A stretch of DNA of 31,861 bases from a virus, in the IMG/VR virus record IMGVR_UViG_3300023184_000361, positions 1-31,861 of that record; one strand, 5' to 3'. The translations under genes and the position numbers were made by a program. The notes beneath the pieces were generated by a model. That model had not been told where the DNA came from, made no database searches, and was given only the letters and a program-made list of their open reading frames with translations. Below are positions 25,338 through 31,861 of this stretch, piece after piece (within the stretch, counting starts at the first letter, position 1; the number at the start of each line of letters is the position of its first letter).

Positions 25338-26215
25338 TGTCTCAACAACTTCCCATATTACCTAACACTCCAGCTAGACGAGTAAACGAGCAGATTGATC
25401 CATATATTTCACCTGCTGATGTGCCTGTTTTACCTGAGGATAAAATAAATCGTGCTAATCAAATATCTGTCGATATTGAAAACGATATTACTCCTATTTC
25501 ATTTGGTTTACAAGACATAGATGAAGCGGTATTTTTTTATTTTGATGACGTTATTAAACCCGTAGTAGTACAAAACGGAAATCAAATTCCTGTACCTACG
25601 ATATATGGTTCACAAGAAAGATGGGTAGCTGTTCAAAAAGATGGGTATTACCGTGACAAAAATGGTAAAATTATGTACCCAATCATAATGATTAGACGAA
25701 CTGGATTTGAAAAAAATAGAACATTAGCAAATAAATTAGATGGTAACGGAGTAAATAATTTTGCTGTTGCACAAGGACGATACAATTCAAAAAATCAATA
25801 TACTAATTTTGATGTTTTAAACAATTACTTACCATCTGAGAAATTCTATTTAACACCCGTGCCTGACTATATTAATGTAACATATGATTGTGTTATTATT
25901 ACTAACTTTATTCAGGAAAATAATAAAATAGTAGAATCTATTGAATTTGCCTCAGACTCATATTGGGGTAATAAAGAACGTTACCAATTTAGAACATATA
26001 TTGACAGATTTGATTCAACTAATGAATATTCAATTAATGAACAACGTGTATCTAAAACAAGCTTAAGTATAACATTGTATGGATACATTATACCTGAAAC
26101 AATTAACAGAGATCTAGCAACTAATGGACAACGCCAATTTTTTTCAAAATCAGTGGTTTCTATTACTGCTGAAACTGTAAAAAATGTTAATAATACTAGA
26201 GCAGGAGAATTATAA
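25337..26215 (+). CDS. 15: Putative tail completion/sheath stabiliser (T4 gp15-like)
   Basis: This 292-residue protein has a Pro-rich N-terminus (LPILPNTPARRVNEQIDPYI) and then a conserved run in the central third: DIDEAVFFYFDDVIKPVV (about 59-76), VPTIYGSQERWVAVQKDGYY (about 84-103) and GKIMYPIIMIRRTGFEKN. I associate the order 'IKP, then VP-YG--ERW, then RD-GKI--P-I--RR' with the gp15 family, which caps the tail tube and binds the terminal sheath ring. T4 gp15 is 272 residues, close to this. The gene overlaps the gp14-like stop (TAATG) and precedes, after two small genes, the sheath and tube. Confidence 0.65.
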   Translation: MSQQLPILPNTPARRVNEQIDPYISPADVPVLPEDKINRANQISVDIENDITPISFGLQDIDEAVFFYFDDVIKPVVVQNGNQIPVPTIYGSQERWVAVQKDGYYRDKNGKIMYPIIMIRRTGFEKNRTLANKLDGNGVNNFAVAQGRYNSKNQYTNFDVLNNYLPSEKFYLTPVPDYINVTYDCVIITNFIQENNKIVESIEFASDSYWGNKERYQFRTYIDRFDSTNEYSINEQRVSKTSLSITLYGYIIPETINRDLATNGQRQFFSKSVVSITAETVKNVNNTRAGEL

Positions 26216-26235
26216 AATATTTGGATATCTAAAAT

Positions 26236-26243
26236 ATATTTAT
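26236..26243 (+). promoter_or_regulatory. ATATTTAT box upstream of the zinc-ribbon gene
   Basis: Exact box copy ending 12 bases before the preferred ATG at 26256. With so short a distance, the leader would be only a few bases if this is the promoter. Inferred. Confidence 0.4.
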
Positions 26244-26255
26244 TATAATAGCGTT

Positions 26256-26498
26256 ATGTTTAAAAAATTTAAAACAATAGCTTCTGCTTGGATAGAAGCA
26301 GAAAACCCATCACCGGAAAGTAAAGCCTTAGCTGAGCGTAGAGCAGCTGTATGTAATGGATGTGAATTTCGTAAAAAAAATACAACATTAATTGACTTCT
26401 ATTACTGTGGATTATGTGGGTGTCCATTAAGCAAAAAAATATTTTCCCCTGTAGATTTAGAAACAAACCCATGCCCTGAAAATAAATGGGATAAATAA
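26256..26498 (+). CDS. Small zinc-ribbon protein
   Basis: The start at 26256 is preferred over an in-frame ATG at 26184, which lies inside the gp15-like gene and adds 24 unlikely residues. The 80-residue product has a basic helical start (MFKKFKTIASAWIEAENPSP), then Cys33-x2-Cys36 (CNGC) and Cys51-x2-Cys54 with Cys56 (CGLCGCP) and Cys73. Two CxxC knuckles 15 residues apart make a zinc-binding ribbon very likely. Such proteins are frequent in environmental myoviruses among late genes, but their role is unknown; RNA, DNA or protein binding are all possible. The next gene begins 18 bases after its stop. Confidence 0.7.
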   Translation: MFKKFKTIASAWIEAENPSPESKALAERRAAVCNGCEFRKKNTTLIDFYYCGLCGCPLSKKIFSPVDLETNPCPENKWDK

Positions 26499-26890: not shown

Positions 26891-29029
26891 ATGGCAGAAG
26901 CAATTATCTCTCCTGGTGTATATACCAATGAAAACGACCAGAGCGCAGTAACACAAGGCCCTATTGAAGCTGGTGCAGCTATCATTGGACCAACTGTTAA
27001 TGGTATTCCTTATGTTCCAACATTAGTCACTTCATATAGTGAATATATTGCAAAATTTGGAACTACTTTTAACAATGGAGCAAGTGGCTCTATGGAATAT
27101 TTTACCTCATTAGCAGCTAAAAACTATTTCGATAATGGAGGTACAACTCTATTAGTAACTAGAATCACAAACCAAGGAACAGGTTCAGCATTAGAACAAT
27201 TTTCTTCTGCAAGTATTCCGATTGTAGGATTTGATGCAACTTCTTCTATGAGTGTAGCTGGCCTACATAAAGATGATGGTGGTGCTGGAACAGTATTTTT
27301 CCTATTATCAGGTTCTGCTAATGGGGTTACTACTGGATCTTTTGGTAAATTCATAATGACAGGTAGTACTACTCAAATAGATGCTGCTCCTATTTACTAT
27401 GTTACAACAGGTTCAACAGCTACAGCTACAGCCGATAATATTACAGCTAAAATCAATTCATTACAATCTACGTTTAGAACGGTGGCAACATCATCTGCAA
27501 CTAATTTAGCTGTAACTGCTAGTGTAAATTATAATGAAACTTTAGGTAACTCATTCCGTATAGTATCATCAAGTATTACTAATGTCTTTGCTGGTGGTTT
27601 AACAGGTGCAGAATGTTTTGAAATCGAAACATTAGCTTGGGGCGCTCAAATGAACAACTCCGGATCTGTATTAGCTTCAGGTGCTTTAGTAAGTGGTAGT
27701 GCTACTAATGTACGTTGGCAAGTTCAAAACGTAAATACTACACAAGGTACATTTACATTAGTTGTAAGAAGCGGTAATGATACAGATGCTCAACCAAATG
27801 TTCTTGAAACATGGACTAACTTATGTATGGATGTTAACCAACCAAACTATATAGCTAGAGTAATCGGTAACACAAAACCAGTTTATACTTACTCAACAGC
27901 AGATGGTCAAGGATATATTGATTATAATGGTGATTTTCCAAATGCTTCAAGATATATTAGAATAGCTAATGTACCTAAAGCACAATTTGGTACATTTGAT
28001 AACAATGGTCTTTACCAATCAGCATTATTCAGTGGAAGTTTACCAGAAAATGGAGATGGAGGTTTAGCAGGTGCTTTTAATGGTGGTCAAATAGATACTT
28101 CATTACCAAGATTTATGTACGAAAACATAATTTCAGGTGTAACAAATGCTCAAGGATTTACAACAGCAGATTACTTCCCAGCAATCAACTTATTAAACAA
28201 TTCAGACGAATATATATTTAATATATTATTAACTCCTGGTTTATTTTTAGCAGGTGGTAATTCAAATATTAATATTGGTGCTAACGGTGCTGATCCAATC
28301 GCATTGTGTGAAGGAAGAGCAGATGCTCTATCAGTAGTTGATCCTGTTCCTTATGGAGGTACAGTTACAAGTGCTAAAACAGCAGCAAATGCTTCAAATT
28401 CTAGCTACGCAGCAACATACTGGCCATGGTGTCAAGTATTTAGCTCAGCAATGGGTAGATTAGTATGGGTTCCCGCTTCAGTATTAATGGGTGGTGTATT
28501 TGCCTTTACAGATCAAGTATCAGCTCCATGGTTCGCTCCAGCAGGTATTACTAGAGGTGGTATTCCAAACGTAGTAAAAGTTGAAAGAAGATTATCATTA
28601 AGCGATAGAAACAACTTATATTTAGATAATGTAAACCCATTATCTACATTCCCTGGAAACGGTGTTGTGGTATTTGGTCAGAAAACATTACAACAAAAAG
28701 CAACAGCTTTAGATAGAGTAAATGTTAGAAGATTATTAATTGCGTTGAAAGGATATATTAGTGGAATATCTCGTTCATTAGTATTTGAACAAAACACAGC
28801 AGTTACAAGAAATAAATTCTTAAACCAAGTAAACCCATACTTAGACTCAGTAGTACAAAGACAAGGTTTATATGCGTTTAAAGTAATAATGGATGAATCA
28901 AATAACACACCAAGTGTTGTAGATAGAAACCAATTAGTAGGTCAAATTTACATCCAACCAACTAAAACTGCTGAATTCGTAATATTAGATTTCACAATTT
29001 TACCAACTGGTGTATCATTTCCATCTTAA
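26891..29029 (+). CDS. 18: Tail sheath protein (T4 gp18-like)
   Basis: This 712-residue protein is the contractile sheath subunit. The N-terminus ISPGVYTNENDQSAVTQGP matches the SPGVY start common to contractile sheaths. The C-terminal region carries the conserved sheath domain: RRLLIALKGYISGISRSLVF (about 614-633), EQNTAVTRNKFLNQVNPYLD and VGQIYIQPTKTAEFVILDF near the end. The central about 150-350 is Ser/Thr/Gly-rich and probably an exposed insertion. Length is close to T4 gp18 (659). The gp19-type tube gene follows after 39 bases, the usual order. It would polymerise around the tube and shorten on host contact. An ATATTTAT box lies both before and after it. Confidence 0.95.
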   Translation: MAEAIISPGVYTNENDQSAVTQGPIEAGAAIIGPTVNGIPYVPTLVTSYSEYIAKFGTTFNNGASGSMEYFTSLAAKNYFDNGGTTLLVTRITNQGTGSALEQFSSASIPIVGFDATSSMSVAGLHKDDGGAGTVFFLLSGSANGVTTGSFGKFIMTGSTTQIDAAPIYYVTTGSTATATADNITAKINSLQSTFRTVATSSATNLAVTASVNYNETLGNSFRIVSSSITNVFAGGLTGAECFEIETLAWGAQMNNSGSVLASGALVSGSATNVRWQVQNVNTTQGTFTLVVRSGNDTDAQPNVLETWTNLCMDVNQPNYIARVIGNTKPVYTYSTADGQGYIDYNGDFPNASRYIRIANVPKAQFGTFDNNGLYQSALFSGSLPENGDGGLAGAFNGGQIDTSLPRFMYENIISGVTNAQGFTTADYFPAINLLNNSDEYIFNILLTPGLFLAGGNSNINIGANGADPIALCEGRADALSVVDPVPYGGTVTSAKTAANASNSSYAATYWPWCQVFSSAMGRLVWVPASVLMGGVFAFTDQVSAPWFAPAGITRGGIPNVVKVERRLSLSDRNNLYLDNVNPLSTFPGNGVVVFGQKTLQQKATALDRVNVRRLLIALKGYISGISRSLVFEQNTAVTRNKFLNQVNPYLDSVVQRQGLYAFKVIMDESNNTPSVVDRNQLVGQIYIQPTKTAEFVILDFTILPTGVSFPS

Positions 29030-29068: not shown

Positions 29069-29560
29069 ATGCCTATATTAAACGCAAACGAAATTATGTT
29101 TACCCAATATGAACCTAAAGTACCAAATAGGTTTATAATGTATGTAAACGGTATTCCATCATATATCATTAAAGGTGTTAGTGCCGTAAATTTCGATGAT
29201 GGAGAAATTATTCTAGATCACATTAACACCTATAGAAAAATTCGTAGCGGAAAAAGGCTATGGGGTGATATGACATTTACATTATTTGACCCAATTGCTC
29301 CATCAGGTGCACAAGTAGTAATGGAATGGGCTCGTTTAGCATATGAATCAATTACTGGTAGAGCAGGTTACTCGGATTTTTATAAAAAAGACATTACATT
29401 TAATGTTTTAGGTCCAGTTGGTGACGTAGTATCAGAATGGGTTGTTAAAGGTGCTTTTATCAAAACTGCAAACTTTGACGATTACGATTGGTCAACATAC
29501 ACAGAAGCAGTTAATCTTACTATGACTATTGGTATGGATTACTGTATATTAAACTACTAA
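29069..29560 (+). CDS. 19: Tail tube protein (T4 gp19-like)
   Basis: This 163-residue protein equals T4 gp19 in length (163). It builds the inner tube through which DNA passes. Family features visible are KVPNRFIMYVNGIPSYIIKG (about 17-36), the SAVNFDDGEIILDHIN strand region with the typical conserved acid-polar loop (about 38-53), RSGKRLWGDMTFTLFDPIAP (about 59-78) and a C-terminal strand pair ending DYDWSTYTEAVNLTMTIGMD. The Trp-Gly-Asp-Met-Thr-Phe strand is typical of gp19-type tubes. It follows the sheath gene and is followed after one base by an 81-residue gene. Confidence 0.92.
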   Translation: MPILNANEIMFTQYEPKVPNRFIMYVNGIPSYIIKGVSAVNFDDGEIILDHINTYRKIRSGKRLWGDMTFTLFDPIAPSGAQVVMEWARLAYESITGRAGYSDFYKKDITFNVLGPVGDVVSEWVVKGAFIKTANFDDYDWSTYTEAVNLTMTIGMDYCILNY

Positions 29561-29822: not shown

Positions 29823-29852
29823 AAACCCGATAGAAATATCGGGTTTCTTTTT
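29823..29852 (+). terminator. Rho-independent terminator after the tube unit
   Basis: AAACCCGATA at 29823-29832 pairs perfectly with TATCGGGTTT at 29837-29846 around a GAAA tetraloop (10 bp), followed by TTTCTTTTTT-like tract. It lies 15 bases after the 81-residue gene. An ATATTTAT box follows about 20 bases later. Confidence 0.93.
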
Positions 29853-29902: not shown

Positions 29903-30664
29903 ATGGCAGATTTAAAAATTCCAACAGAAATCGTTACATTACCATCAAAAGGTCTTGTTTATCCCGAAACCTCATTACTAGCTAAGGGAGAAATTGAAAT
30001 GCGTTATATGAGCGCAAGAGATGAAGATATTTTAACCAATATCAACTTCATTAAGCAAGGAACAGCTATTGATAAATTGTTAAAATCACTTATTGTATCC
30101 CCTATCGATATTGATGATATGGTTACAGGTGATAAGAATGCAGTTTTATTTGCTGCTCGTATTTTAGGATACGGAAAAGATTACACATTCAAATTTAGAA
30201 ATGAATTAACAGGCGCTGATGATGAATATACTGTAGATTTAACTACATTAGATGACAAACCGCTAGATGAAAATTTATTTGAAAAAGGTAAGAATGAATT
30301 TATATTTACTTTACCTAAATCTGGTAATGTAGTAACTTTTAAGTTATTAACTGGTCAAGATGAAAAATCAATAGACGCGGAAATTAAAGGACTTCAAAAA
30401 ATTGACGCAAACGGGTCATTTGATAATACTACGCGTTTAAAACACATGATAATCGCAATTAACGGTAAAACTGATCGCGTGTCAATAATAGACTTTGTAG
30501 ATAATTACCTACTAGTACCAGATTCAAGAGCATTTAAAAAGTACTATGCTGAAATATCTCCGGACATTGAAACTACAATAACTTTAAATAAAGATGGATA
30601 CGTTCAGGAGGGCGTAACTATCCCAATAGGGATTAGCTTTTTTTGGCCTGACGCCCAAATATAG
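29903..30664 (+). CDS. 26: Baseplate hub / tail-assembly protein (T4 gp26-like)
   Basis: This 253-residue protein has IVTLPSKGLVYPETSLLAKG (about 10-29) followed by EIEMRYMSARDEDILTNINF (about 31-50). That is the signature of the T4 gp26-type baseplate family: LPSKG-xx-Y near the start and a MxAxxED-ILT helix. DKLLKSLIVSPIDID and a conserved middle with AARILGYGKDYTFKF follow. T4 gp26 is 208 residues. The end, IPIGISFFWPDAQI, is encoded across a run of seven T (30638-30644). The following ORF in the +1 frame starts inside this gene without a start codon of its own, so part of the ribosomes may shift there and make a roughly 333-residue extended form. The gene lies before a tape-measure candidate, the place of tail-assembly chaperones in many phages. 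Confidence 0.85.
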   Translation: MADLKIPTEIVTLPSKGLVYPETSLLAKGEIEMRYMSARDEDILTNINFIKQGTAIDKLLKSLIVSPIDIDDMVTGDKNAVLFAARILGYGKDYTFKFRNELTGADDEYTVDLTTLDDKPLDENLFEKGKNEFIFTLPKSGNVVTFKLLTGQDEKSIDAEIKGLQKIDANGSFDNTTRLKHMIIAINGKTDRVSIIDFVDNYLLVPDSRAFKKYYAEISPDIETTITLNKDGYVQEGVTIPIGISFFWPDAQI

Positions 30665-30905
30665 AGAATATTTATTTTCTAAAATACATGAAATTTGTTT
30701 TTATGGGCAAGGAGGATATGATTGGGAAACTATTTATAATATGCCTATTTCACATCGTGACTTTATTTATAATAAAATAAGGGAACATTATGAAAAACAA
30801 AACACGGAAGCTGAAAAACAGCAAAAATCAATGAAATCTAGAACGGCAACAACTGCTAAACCTCCAATAAATCCGACATATACATCGAAAGCGTCTAAAA
30901 AATAG
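30630..30905 (+). CDS. +1-frame ORF overlapping gp26-like gene, probably expressed by frameshift
   Basis: Frame open from 30630 (after TAG at 30627-30629) to TAG at 30903-30905. The first ATG is at 30741, only 54 codons before the end, yet the sequence upstream of it looks coding and well structured: PKYREYLFSKIHEICFYGQG, GYDWETIYNMPISHRDFIYN, then a Lys/Gln/Thr-rich tail. No ATG, GTG or TTG in good context lies before 30741. The frame is +1 (or -2) relative to the gp26-like gene, and the shared window 30630-30664 contains the TTTTTTT run. A shift there would fuse 247 residues of the first frame to 86 of the second. The alternative is a single-base assembly error: six T would give one continuous 333-codon gene. 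The tail resembles proteins following gp26-type genes in relatives as far as I recall, but no family is certain. Confidence 0.7.
   Translation, partial: GLAFFGLTPKYREYLFSKIHEICFYGQGGYDWETIYNMPISHRDFIYNKIREHYEKQNTEAEKQQKSMKSRTATTAKPPINPTYTSKASKK
30638..30644 (+). other. Seven-T slippery sequence, candidate programmed frameshift site
   Basis: TTT TTT TGG in the gp26-like frame encodes Phe-Phe-Trp. Moving one base forward gives TTT TTT GGC CTG ACG and enters the downstream frame. It is the only homopolymer within the 35-base window where both frames are open. No clear stimulatory hairpin was identified by eye immediately downstream. Confidence 0.6.
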
Positions 30906-30914
30906 GGCGCTTTC
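30887..30914 (+). other. Weak hairpin at the end of the frameshift ORF
   Basis: GAAAGCG at 30887-30893 can pair with CGCTTTC at 30908-30914 (7 bp) across a 14-base loop that includes the stop codon. It is directly followed by an ATATTTAT box. No T run follows, so it is at best a partial terminator or a processing signal. Confidence 0.35.
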
Positions 30915-30939: not shown

Positions 30940-31861
30940 ATGGCTGATAATTTTAATAAGCAAGATCTTCAAGATAATACCGGAGAATTAAATAAATTTA
31001 ATGATTCATTACGTGAATCTATAGATTTGTCTAGATCTTTATCTAAAAATGTTAAATCTGTTACTGATGCTCTTAAACTTTCTAAAGGAGCTAACAGTGA
31101 ACTTTACGCTGATTTAGGTAAATATAATGATGCTTTAAAACAAGCCCAAAGTTTATCTAAAAGGTTACTTACTGGGCGTGTGAAAGAATTAGAAGTATCT
31201 ACTGCTTTATCAAATATTCAAAAGACTTATGGAGAGTATATAGCTCGAAATAATAAATCATTTGGTGAAAGAGGTAGATTTACTATAAGACAAAAAAGTC
31301 TCCAAGAAGAACTTAATAAATTAGCCGATAAAGAAGTTAAACGTCAAGAGGATATAGCTAATGCTGATGCTCGTATTGATAGTCTTAGACGTAATTTAGC
31401 AAATCAAGAGGAAATCCGAAACGCTACAATATCTTCTACTCAACGAAAGATAGAAGAAAGAGCAGTTCAAGCTATTAAAACCCAAATTAAAGAAGAATCT
31501 GAACTCATCAGAGTTATTGAAGGTGGAGCTAAAAATAATGAAAGAATAATCACTAGGAAAACTCAAGAGCTAGAAAAAGTTAATGAGATACTAGAAGCTC
31601 ATGAAGGCATCCAACGCCAATATGAAGATGAGATAAAAGCTAATGAAATTCTTCTTGATCAAGTTAAAAAACAAAATTTACAATATAGACTTACTAAAGG
31701 AGGAATTGATGGTTTATCTAGTGGATTAAAAGATATCAAAGCCTTACTCAACCCGTTCTCAGCCATATTTGAATTTATTAAAAAAATAGCATTTGGTGCC
31801 TCTGATCAAGTAGTAAGAATACAAAAAGGTTTAGTTGCAAGTAAAGAAGAAGCATATGCTT
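30940..31861 (+). CDS. N-terminal part of a coiled-coil tape-measure-like protein (3' truncated)
   Basis: ATG at 30940 begins a frame that stays open to the window end (307 codons visible). The visible part is almost entirely helical and highly charged, e.g. DLSRSLSKNVKSVTDALKLS (about 29-48), KSLQEELNKLADKEVKRQED (about 118-137) and ERIITRKTQELEKVNEILEA. Near the end a more hydrophobic segment, LLNPFSAIFEFIKKIAFGAS (about 269-288), may begin the hydrophobic region usual in tape measures. Long coiled coils, placement after a gp26-type gene with a possible frameshift, and being 3' of the tube gene all fit a tail tape measure, which sets tail length. In T4 this role is played by gp29. The start has no Shine-Dalgarno sequence, like its neighbours. 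The rest lies outside the window. Confidence 0.7.
   Translation, partial: MADNFNKQDLQDNTGELNKFNDSLRESIDLSRSLSKNVKSVTDALKLSKGANSELYADLGKYNDALKQAQSLSKRLLTGRVKELEVSTALSNIQKTYGEYIARNNKSFGERGRFTIRQKSLQEELNKLADKEVKRQEDIANADARIDSLRRNLANQEEIRNATISSTQRKIEERAVQAIKTQIKEESELIRVIEGGAKNNERIITRKTQELEKVNEILEAHEGIQRQYEDEIKANEILLDQVKKQNLQYRLTKGGIDGLSSGLKDIKALLNPFSAIFEFIKKIAFGASDQVVRIQKGLVASKEEAYA

Follow-up and report, generated by a model that had tools for sequence, protein, structure and literature searches.

The window, by which we mean the whole 31,861-nucleotide stretch of viral DNA that was analyzed, carries tail genes in the order sheath, tube, small ORF, gp26-like gene, extension and long ORF (Table 1), and the order in Flavobacterium phage immuto is identical. 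The gp26-like ORF and a second open frame, which is +1 relative to it, overlap by 35 bases, and computed translation through a +1 shift in this overlap gives a product of 333 residues. The first ATG of the second frame lies at 30741, and the stretch GGA TTA GCT TTT TTT GGC CTG upstream of it is devoid of ATG, GTG and TTG. An earlier reading of this DNA, made from the sequence only (the sequence-only reading), had given the two ORFs, their overlap, a run of seven Ts (T7) within it, the late ATG and the product length, and all of these coordinates were found to be correct.

Table 1. Overlapping frames, putative slippery site and neighboring tail genes in the window.
Feature	Position	Strand	Remarks
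Tail sheath protein	26891..29029	+	PHROG_23 (E 3.3e-69), PF04984
Tail tube protein	29069..29560	+	PHROG_4542 (E 3.3e-14)
gp26-like ORF, TAC-N short form	29903..30664	+	253 aa; C-terminus ...GISFFWPDAQI, then stop
+1-frame open frame (TAC-C)	30630..30905	+	Would be read from 30645 after the shift; 86-residue C-terminal extension
Base before the T run	30637	+	C in the window; proposed blocker of the -1 option (U UUU UUU)
Putative slippery site TTT TTT TGG	30638..30646	+	Contains the T7 run, 30638-30644
Probable tape measure protein gene	30940..31861	+	Runs off the window; assigned from position and length only

The overlapping ORFs lie between the tail tube gene and the tape measure gene, as in G/GT-type arrangements, the latter gene being recognized from its position and length. 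An annotated tape measure gene occupies the equivalent position in immuto, and closed relatives encode 665-1480 aa there. Pfam and PHROG profile searches with the tape-measure-like ORF of the window gave no family match of note, and its similarity to the immuto tape measure was marginal only. A search of the window for tRNA genes found none. Immediately 5' of the gp26-like gene, at 29823-29846, there is a strong, intrinsic-terminator-like hairpin (AAACCCGATAGAAATATCGGGTTT followed by CTTTTT), and because of this hairpin the chaperone gene and the tape measure gene may together constitute a separate transcription unit. Another hairpin (GAAAGCGTCTAAAAAATAGGGCGCTTTC, 30887-30914) covers the end of the extension and its stop codon, ahead of the tape-measure-like gene. 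Farther upstream, a small Cys-rich ORF at 26184-26498 (CNGCEFRKKN...YYCGLCGCPL...CPENKW) overlaps the end of the preceding gene; it has a zinc-ribbon-like look and had no clear family match in the profile search.

The product of the first ORF had been called gp26-like, and this identity was upheld by profile and structure comparisons. The short protein matched PHROG_150 (baseplate hub) with an E value of 4.2e-9 and PF12322 with an E value of 3.3e-4 and 20.8 bits, which is under the gathering cut-off of 24.5; this cut-off was passed by three of four close relatives, and the proteins of SP-15, LIS04 and LR756508 gave strong PF12322 scores. The AlphaFold model of the short protein (pLDDT 91) had T4-like baseplate hub (assembly) proteins among its top Foldseek matches, and the hub protein of Bacillus phage SP-15 matched it with a TM score of 0.83. 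Relatives with a solved structure were sought by sequence and by fold, and none was found. PF12322 also includes both T4 gp26 and T4 gp51, and an hhalign comparison showed these two proteins to be homologous (P 99.5). The gene is a member of the T4 gp26/gp51 tail-assembly-chaperone family (PHROG_150/PF12322), and its short protein has 80 viral relatives at 57-92% identity. Two relatives of 161-166 kb each carry one family member, and a separate gp51-like gene was not found in either of them.

Homologues of the extension were found in Flavobacterium and Microcystis phages and, with a single extension protein as the query, in 277 viral stretches. Their consensus is GLtp.Yr..l...If.l.yhG.GGf.w..vYnmPiwlR.Fy..ki.e, and the extension, which was modelled separately from the short protein, was predicted with moderate confidence (pLDDT 77) to form a three-helix domain. 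The +1 frame was open for at least 65 codons in 95 of 95 complete dereplicated loci, and the median for the -1 frame was one codon. Beyond the zero-frame stop, dN/dS was less than 1 in 93% of 581 pairs, with a median of 0.61 that is a rough value given how divergent many of the pairs are. Using hhalign, the extension aligned collinearly but weakly with the C-terminus of gp51 (E 0.014 for +1 extensions and 5e-4 for the -1 extensions described below), and it had no match to the single T4 gp51 sequence. Databases split or miss the extension, which carries either a hypothetical-protein annotation or a late start. In BFVD, the protein pairs A0A343LED6/A0A343LED7 (Leptospira phage LE4) and A0A8S5QRT9/A0A8S5QR30 (Myoviridae sp. 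ctgXL3) each consist of one chaperone-fold match and one weak extension-fold match; these are possibly further frameshift pairs.

The case for frameshifting rests on comparison, because the window is AT-rich and T7 runs are no rarity in it: 18 were observed and 34 expected. As judged from the alignments, the run by itself is ordinary here and its conservation is far beyond chance. Across 179 loci, which are the relatives with a recognizable site, the motif was TTTTTTTGG (exact TTT-TTT-TGG) in 154, TTCTTTTGG in 14, CTTTTTTGG in three, TTTTTTTAC in two and six others in one each, and most of the variants retain YTT-Y. The downstream extension was open in the +1 frame at all of these loci except five, which comprise a truncated contig, a single -1 case and three cases with two genes. 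In 77 of 78 complete close relatives the site reads AAC/AGC-TTT-TTT-TGG-CCT and the +1 frame is open (cut by the contig end in one of the 77), and the same site and +1 relation recur at almost every one of about 95 more distant loci, found with Microcystis and LR756508 proteins. One locus, L273, has the same site together with an in-frame stop within its short gene. A search from the extension side, which was not fully independent because one query peptide (FFGLTPKY) spanned the site, yielded the YTT-Y site and the +1 arrangement in all 78 analysable loci.

After dereplication at 90% nucleotide identity, 106 loci were used to compute synonymous conservation. Codons 247, 249 and 246 (Phe247, Pro249 and Phe246) ranked highest among 172 columns, with values of 0.98, 0.97 and 0.96, respectively, against a mean across the gene of 0.53 (s.d. 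0.15). The Phe codons are the cleaner signal in this comparison, because dual coding (Gly-Leu in +1) can likewise preserve Pro CCT and Trp TGG; elsewhere in these genes, 234 of 1004 Phe codons are TTC. A conserved slippery sequence thus stands at the frame transition, as in G/GT-type systems, and the alignment of relatives bore out the expectation of the sequence-only reading that the T run and the +1 relation would be conserved while both frames keep coding.

That reading had proposed a shift of +1 or -2. Taken alone, the T7 run of the window fits both equally by sequence, and the same applies to SP-15 (TTT TTT CAC) and LIS04 (TTT TTT AGT). A -2 ribosomal frameshift, which is known for phage Mu tails (PMC5009743), would let the P-site UUU re-pair two bases back within T7 and would yield a 334-residue product (...SFFFGLT). 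The variant sites of relatives weigh on this point: at TTC TTT TGG (14 loci), TTC TTT CGT and TTT CTA TTC, the P-site tRNA could re-pair at +1 and never at -2, and in immuto CTT TGG constitutes a CUU_U RF2 site with a sense codon behind it. The -2 shift is therefore ruled out in the relatives with TTC-TTT-TGG and TTC-TTT-CGT, and as an explanation for the whole it appears very unlikely. The comparative evidence favors +1 over -2, such that the first half of the original proposal stands and the second fails at these variants.

Another explanation, to which we give a very low probability, is that the extension is a separate gene, translated from an internal start and unfused to the chaperone. 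This is exactly the situation in three relatives, L072, L186 and L191, and some Microcystis-type relatives have a +1-frame ATG just upstream; overall, a +1-frame ATG precedes the site in about 30% of dereplicated relatives. An additional product could arise in those relatives by internal initiation, though not in the window, which has no ATG, GTG or TTG before the conserved residues and where a start at ATG 30741 would drop the first half of the conserved domain. Furthermore, the lineages with a separate start have lost the T run, suggesting that the run is important where no separate start exists.

These two-gene relatives serve as natural controls. L072 encodes the same FFW residues with TTC TTC TGG, a GIY-YIG endonuclease ORF follows the stop codon, and the extension has its own ATG, starting MIPYKDKKVLEFFGITEEN. 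L186 and L191 have TTC TTG TAT and TTC CTT TGG CCA, respectively, and no +1 ORF; their extension is ATG-started within a few bases of the stop. Because the tree places L072 (sister to L062, which has TTTTTTTGG) apart from L186/L191 (sister to immuto, which has TTTCTTTGG), both inside the frameshifting clade, loss of the slippery site with acquisition of an ATG for the extension is, on this tree, the outcome of two separate replacements; the one-change count that the tree gives for the two-gene label omits ungrouped rows lying between. An ATG-started second ORF with no slippery run, the pattern named beforehand as speaking against a frameshift, was found only as these exceptions. They indicate that frameshifting, and not the encoded residues, is the reason why the site has been retained; they also indicate that the extension is capable of existing as a protein on its own. 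The insertion in L072 (L072:5833-6446) is a GIY-YIG homing endonuclease-like ORF lying exactly between the chaperone gene and the extension; a group I intron was considered at this place and rejected, as there was no Rfam match, and the arrangement looks like a free-standing GIY-YIG ORF plus a separate extension gene.

Transcriptional slippage on the T7 run, which would fuse the frames through mRNAs that are one T shorter, is highly improbable. Long runs can make phage or host RNA polymerases slip, and the site is a T7 homopolymer, but relatives with only T3 or T4 (TTTCTTTGG, TTCTTTTGG) retain the same +1 architecture. Although a homopolymer at a two-frame junction is a classic artefact, a sequencing error (six Ts in reality) or a decayed gene can be dismissed, as T7, the point on which the sequence-only reading had asked for seven Ts to be distinguished from six, occurs in 154 of 179 loci, among them that of the isolate Microcystis phage Mel-JY01, and also in the very divergent isolate Rhodothermus phage RM378 (TTT TTT TGG with a +1 extension), while both frames are conserved as protein and the synonymous sites of the junction are frozen.

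From the comparison of sequences, then, the site is shown to be under selection, both frames to be coding and the site to be lost when an independent start is present. It is very probable that a programmed +1 frameshift at this site makes the short and long tail assembly chaperones of a contractile-tailed phage. The slip itself, the ratio of short to long product and the functions of the two proteins are what we infer for this process. Most ribosomes would produce the short protein of 253 residues. In a minority, the P-site tRNA-Phe, paired with the second UUU (30641-30643) while the UGG codon waits, would slip by +1 (UUU_U to UUU) onto 30642-30644, so that base 30644 would be passed over and GGC (30645-30647) read next. 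A further 86 codons would then complete a long protein of 333 residues, whose extra part is a predicted helical domain. If lambda G/GT is taken as the model, the tape measure is probably coated by the short form, and the few long forms would recruit tail tube subunits.

A conserved RNA stimulator was considered and rejected: a stem around the site in the window (z -1.97) had both of its arms kept in only 29 of 47 close relatives. A terminator-like hairpin is located just before the T run, at 30620-30633, and appears to be absent in sequences of more distant run-keeping clades.

In distant jumbo phages, namely XacN1, RAS14, Atu_ph07 and the uncultured LR756511, a homologous extension (hhalign P 97) is in the -1 frame at U_UUU_UUY, on the same Phe-Phe codons. 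The -1 extension is unannotated or split in all of these loci (L089, L091, L092 and L093 for XacN1, Atu_ph07, RAS14 and LR756511, respectively). A T directly precedes the run in four of four, while among 93 dereplicated +1 T7 loci the base at this place is C in 71, G in 18, A in four and T in none; from same-gene codon usage T would be expected in about 50 of the 93, a figure for loci that are related and not independent. This pattern suggests that T is avoided before the run to remove the -1 heptamer, although T might instead be avoided for other reasons, i.e. against a run of eight Ts. According to the proposed switch, U before UUU-UUU would lead to a -1 slip, and C, G or A to a +1 slip. We tentatively consider, at somewhat less than even chance, that Phe-Phe frameshifting is ancient in the T4-type chaperone family, that its direction is set by one base and that the two-gene forms, in T4 and in the relatives described here, are later replacements.

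These results indicate that frameshifting does occur among relatives of the T4 chaperone, mostly by +1 and at a site that is unusually strict; the phages in question have hosts among the Bacteroidota, cyanobacteria and Firmicutes, as well as many uncultured hosts. The family would thus use a lambda-like strategy by means of an RF2-like +1 shift, which is of note because T4 is the cited exception, with separate short and long genes. It also represents a natural experiment in which +1, -1 and two-gene solutions, including two clean losses, are found at the same codons, and it contributes an example, widespread among phages, of likely +1 slippage at UUU_U while the A site holds a sense codon. The sequence-only reading had supposed that frameshifting was never described for gp26. 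This appears to hold for +1 at YUU_U, and does not extend to the T4 gp26/gp51 pair or to poly-T -1 signals, which were already published. New here appear to be the probable +1 shift at YUU_U in the gp26/gp51 family, its deep conservation, the candidate one-base switch of direction and the two natural losses.

Vladimirov, Gautam and Davidson reportedly identified T4 gp26 and gp51 as a short/long tail assembly chaperone pair in 2022. PMC10885494, which cites Vladimirov et al. 2022, describes T4-like phages as having a short gene together with a long gene that is a fusion. The protein of the window belongs to the same family as T4 gp26/gp51 (PHROG_150, PF12322), but T4 uses two genes and the window one gene with a putative frameshift, and the C-terminus of gp51 resembles the window-type extension weakly. 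Poly-T -1 signals are known in TAC-N genes of some T4-like phages, according to PMC12846349. Vandenendeviridae/Andersonviridae similarly have a poly-T site (GTTTTT) near the end of a contractile-phage chaperone gene, with a shift of -1 there (PMC12846349) and probably of +1 here. XacN1, RAS14, Atu_ph07 and LR756511 share with the window a related N-domain, a homologous extension and the same Phe-Phe codons, and differ in the -1 frame of the extension, the U_UUU_UUY motif and the T before the run.

In bacterial RF2 the conserved +1 site is CUU_U, with UUU_U occurring in a minority of species (PMC5009743). As in the RF2 gene (prfB), a P-site YUU would slip onto the next U, the motif being UUU_U in the window and CUU_U in immuto. 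In contrast to prfB, there is no close Shine-Dalgarno sequence here, the nearest AGGAGG being about 26 nt upstream of the T run, and the A site holds a sense codon (mostly UGG) instead of a stop codon. Atkins et al. 2016 (PMC5009743) describe G-T frameshifting as a conserved trait of long-tailed phages, T4 excepted, and lambda G/GT uses a -1 shift (PMC5009743). Similar to lambda G/GT, and also to many siphophages, P2 and Mu, the window would express a short and a C-terminally extended form from overlapping frames that lie between the tail tube and tape measure genes, with the site at the 3' end of the short gene. Whereas lambda shifts by -1, the shift here appears to be +1 at YUU_U, and the likeness we propose is one of strategy rather than of sequence kinship.
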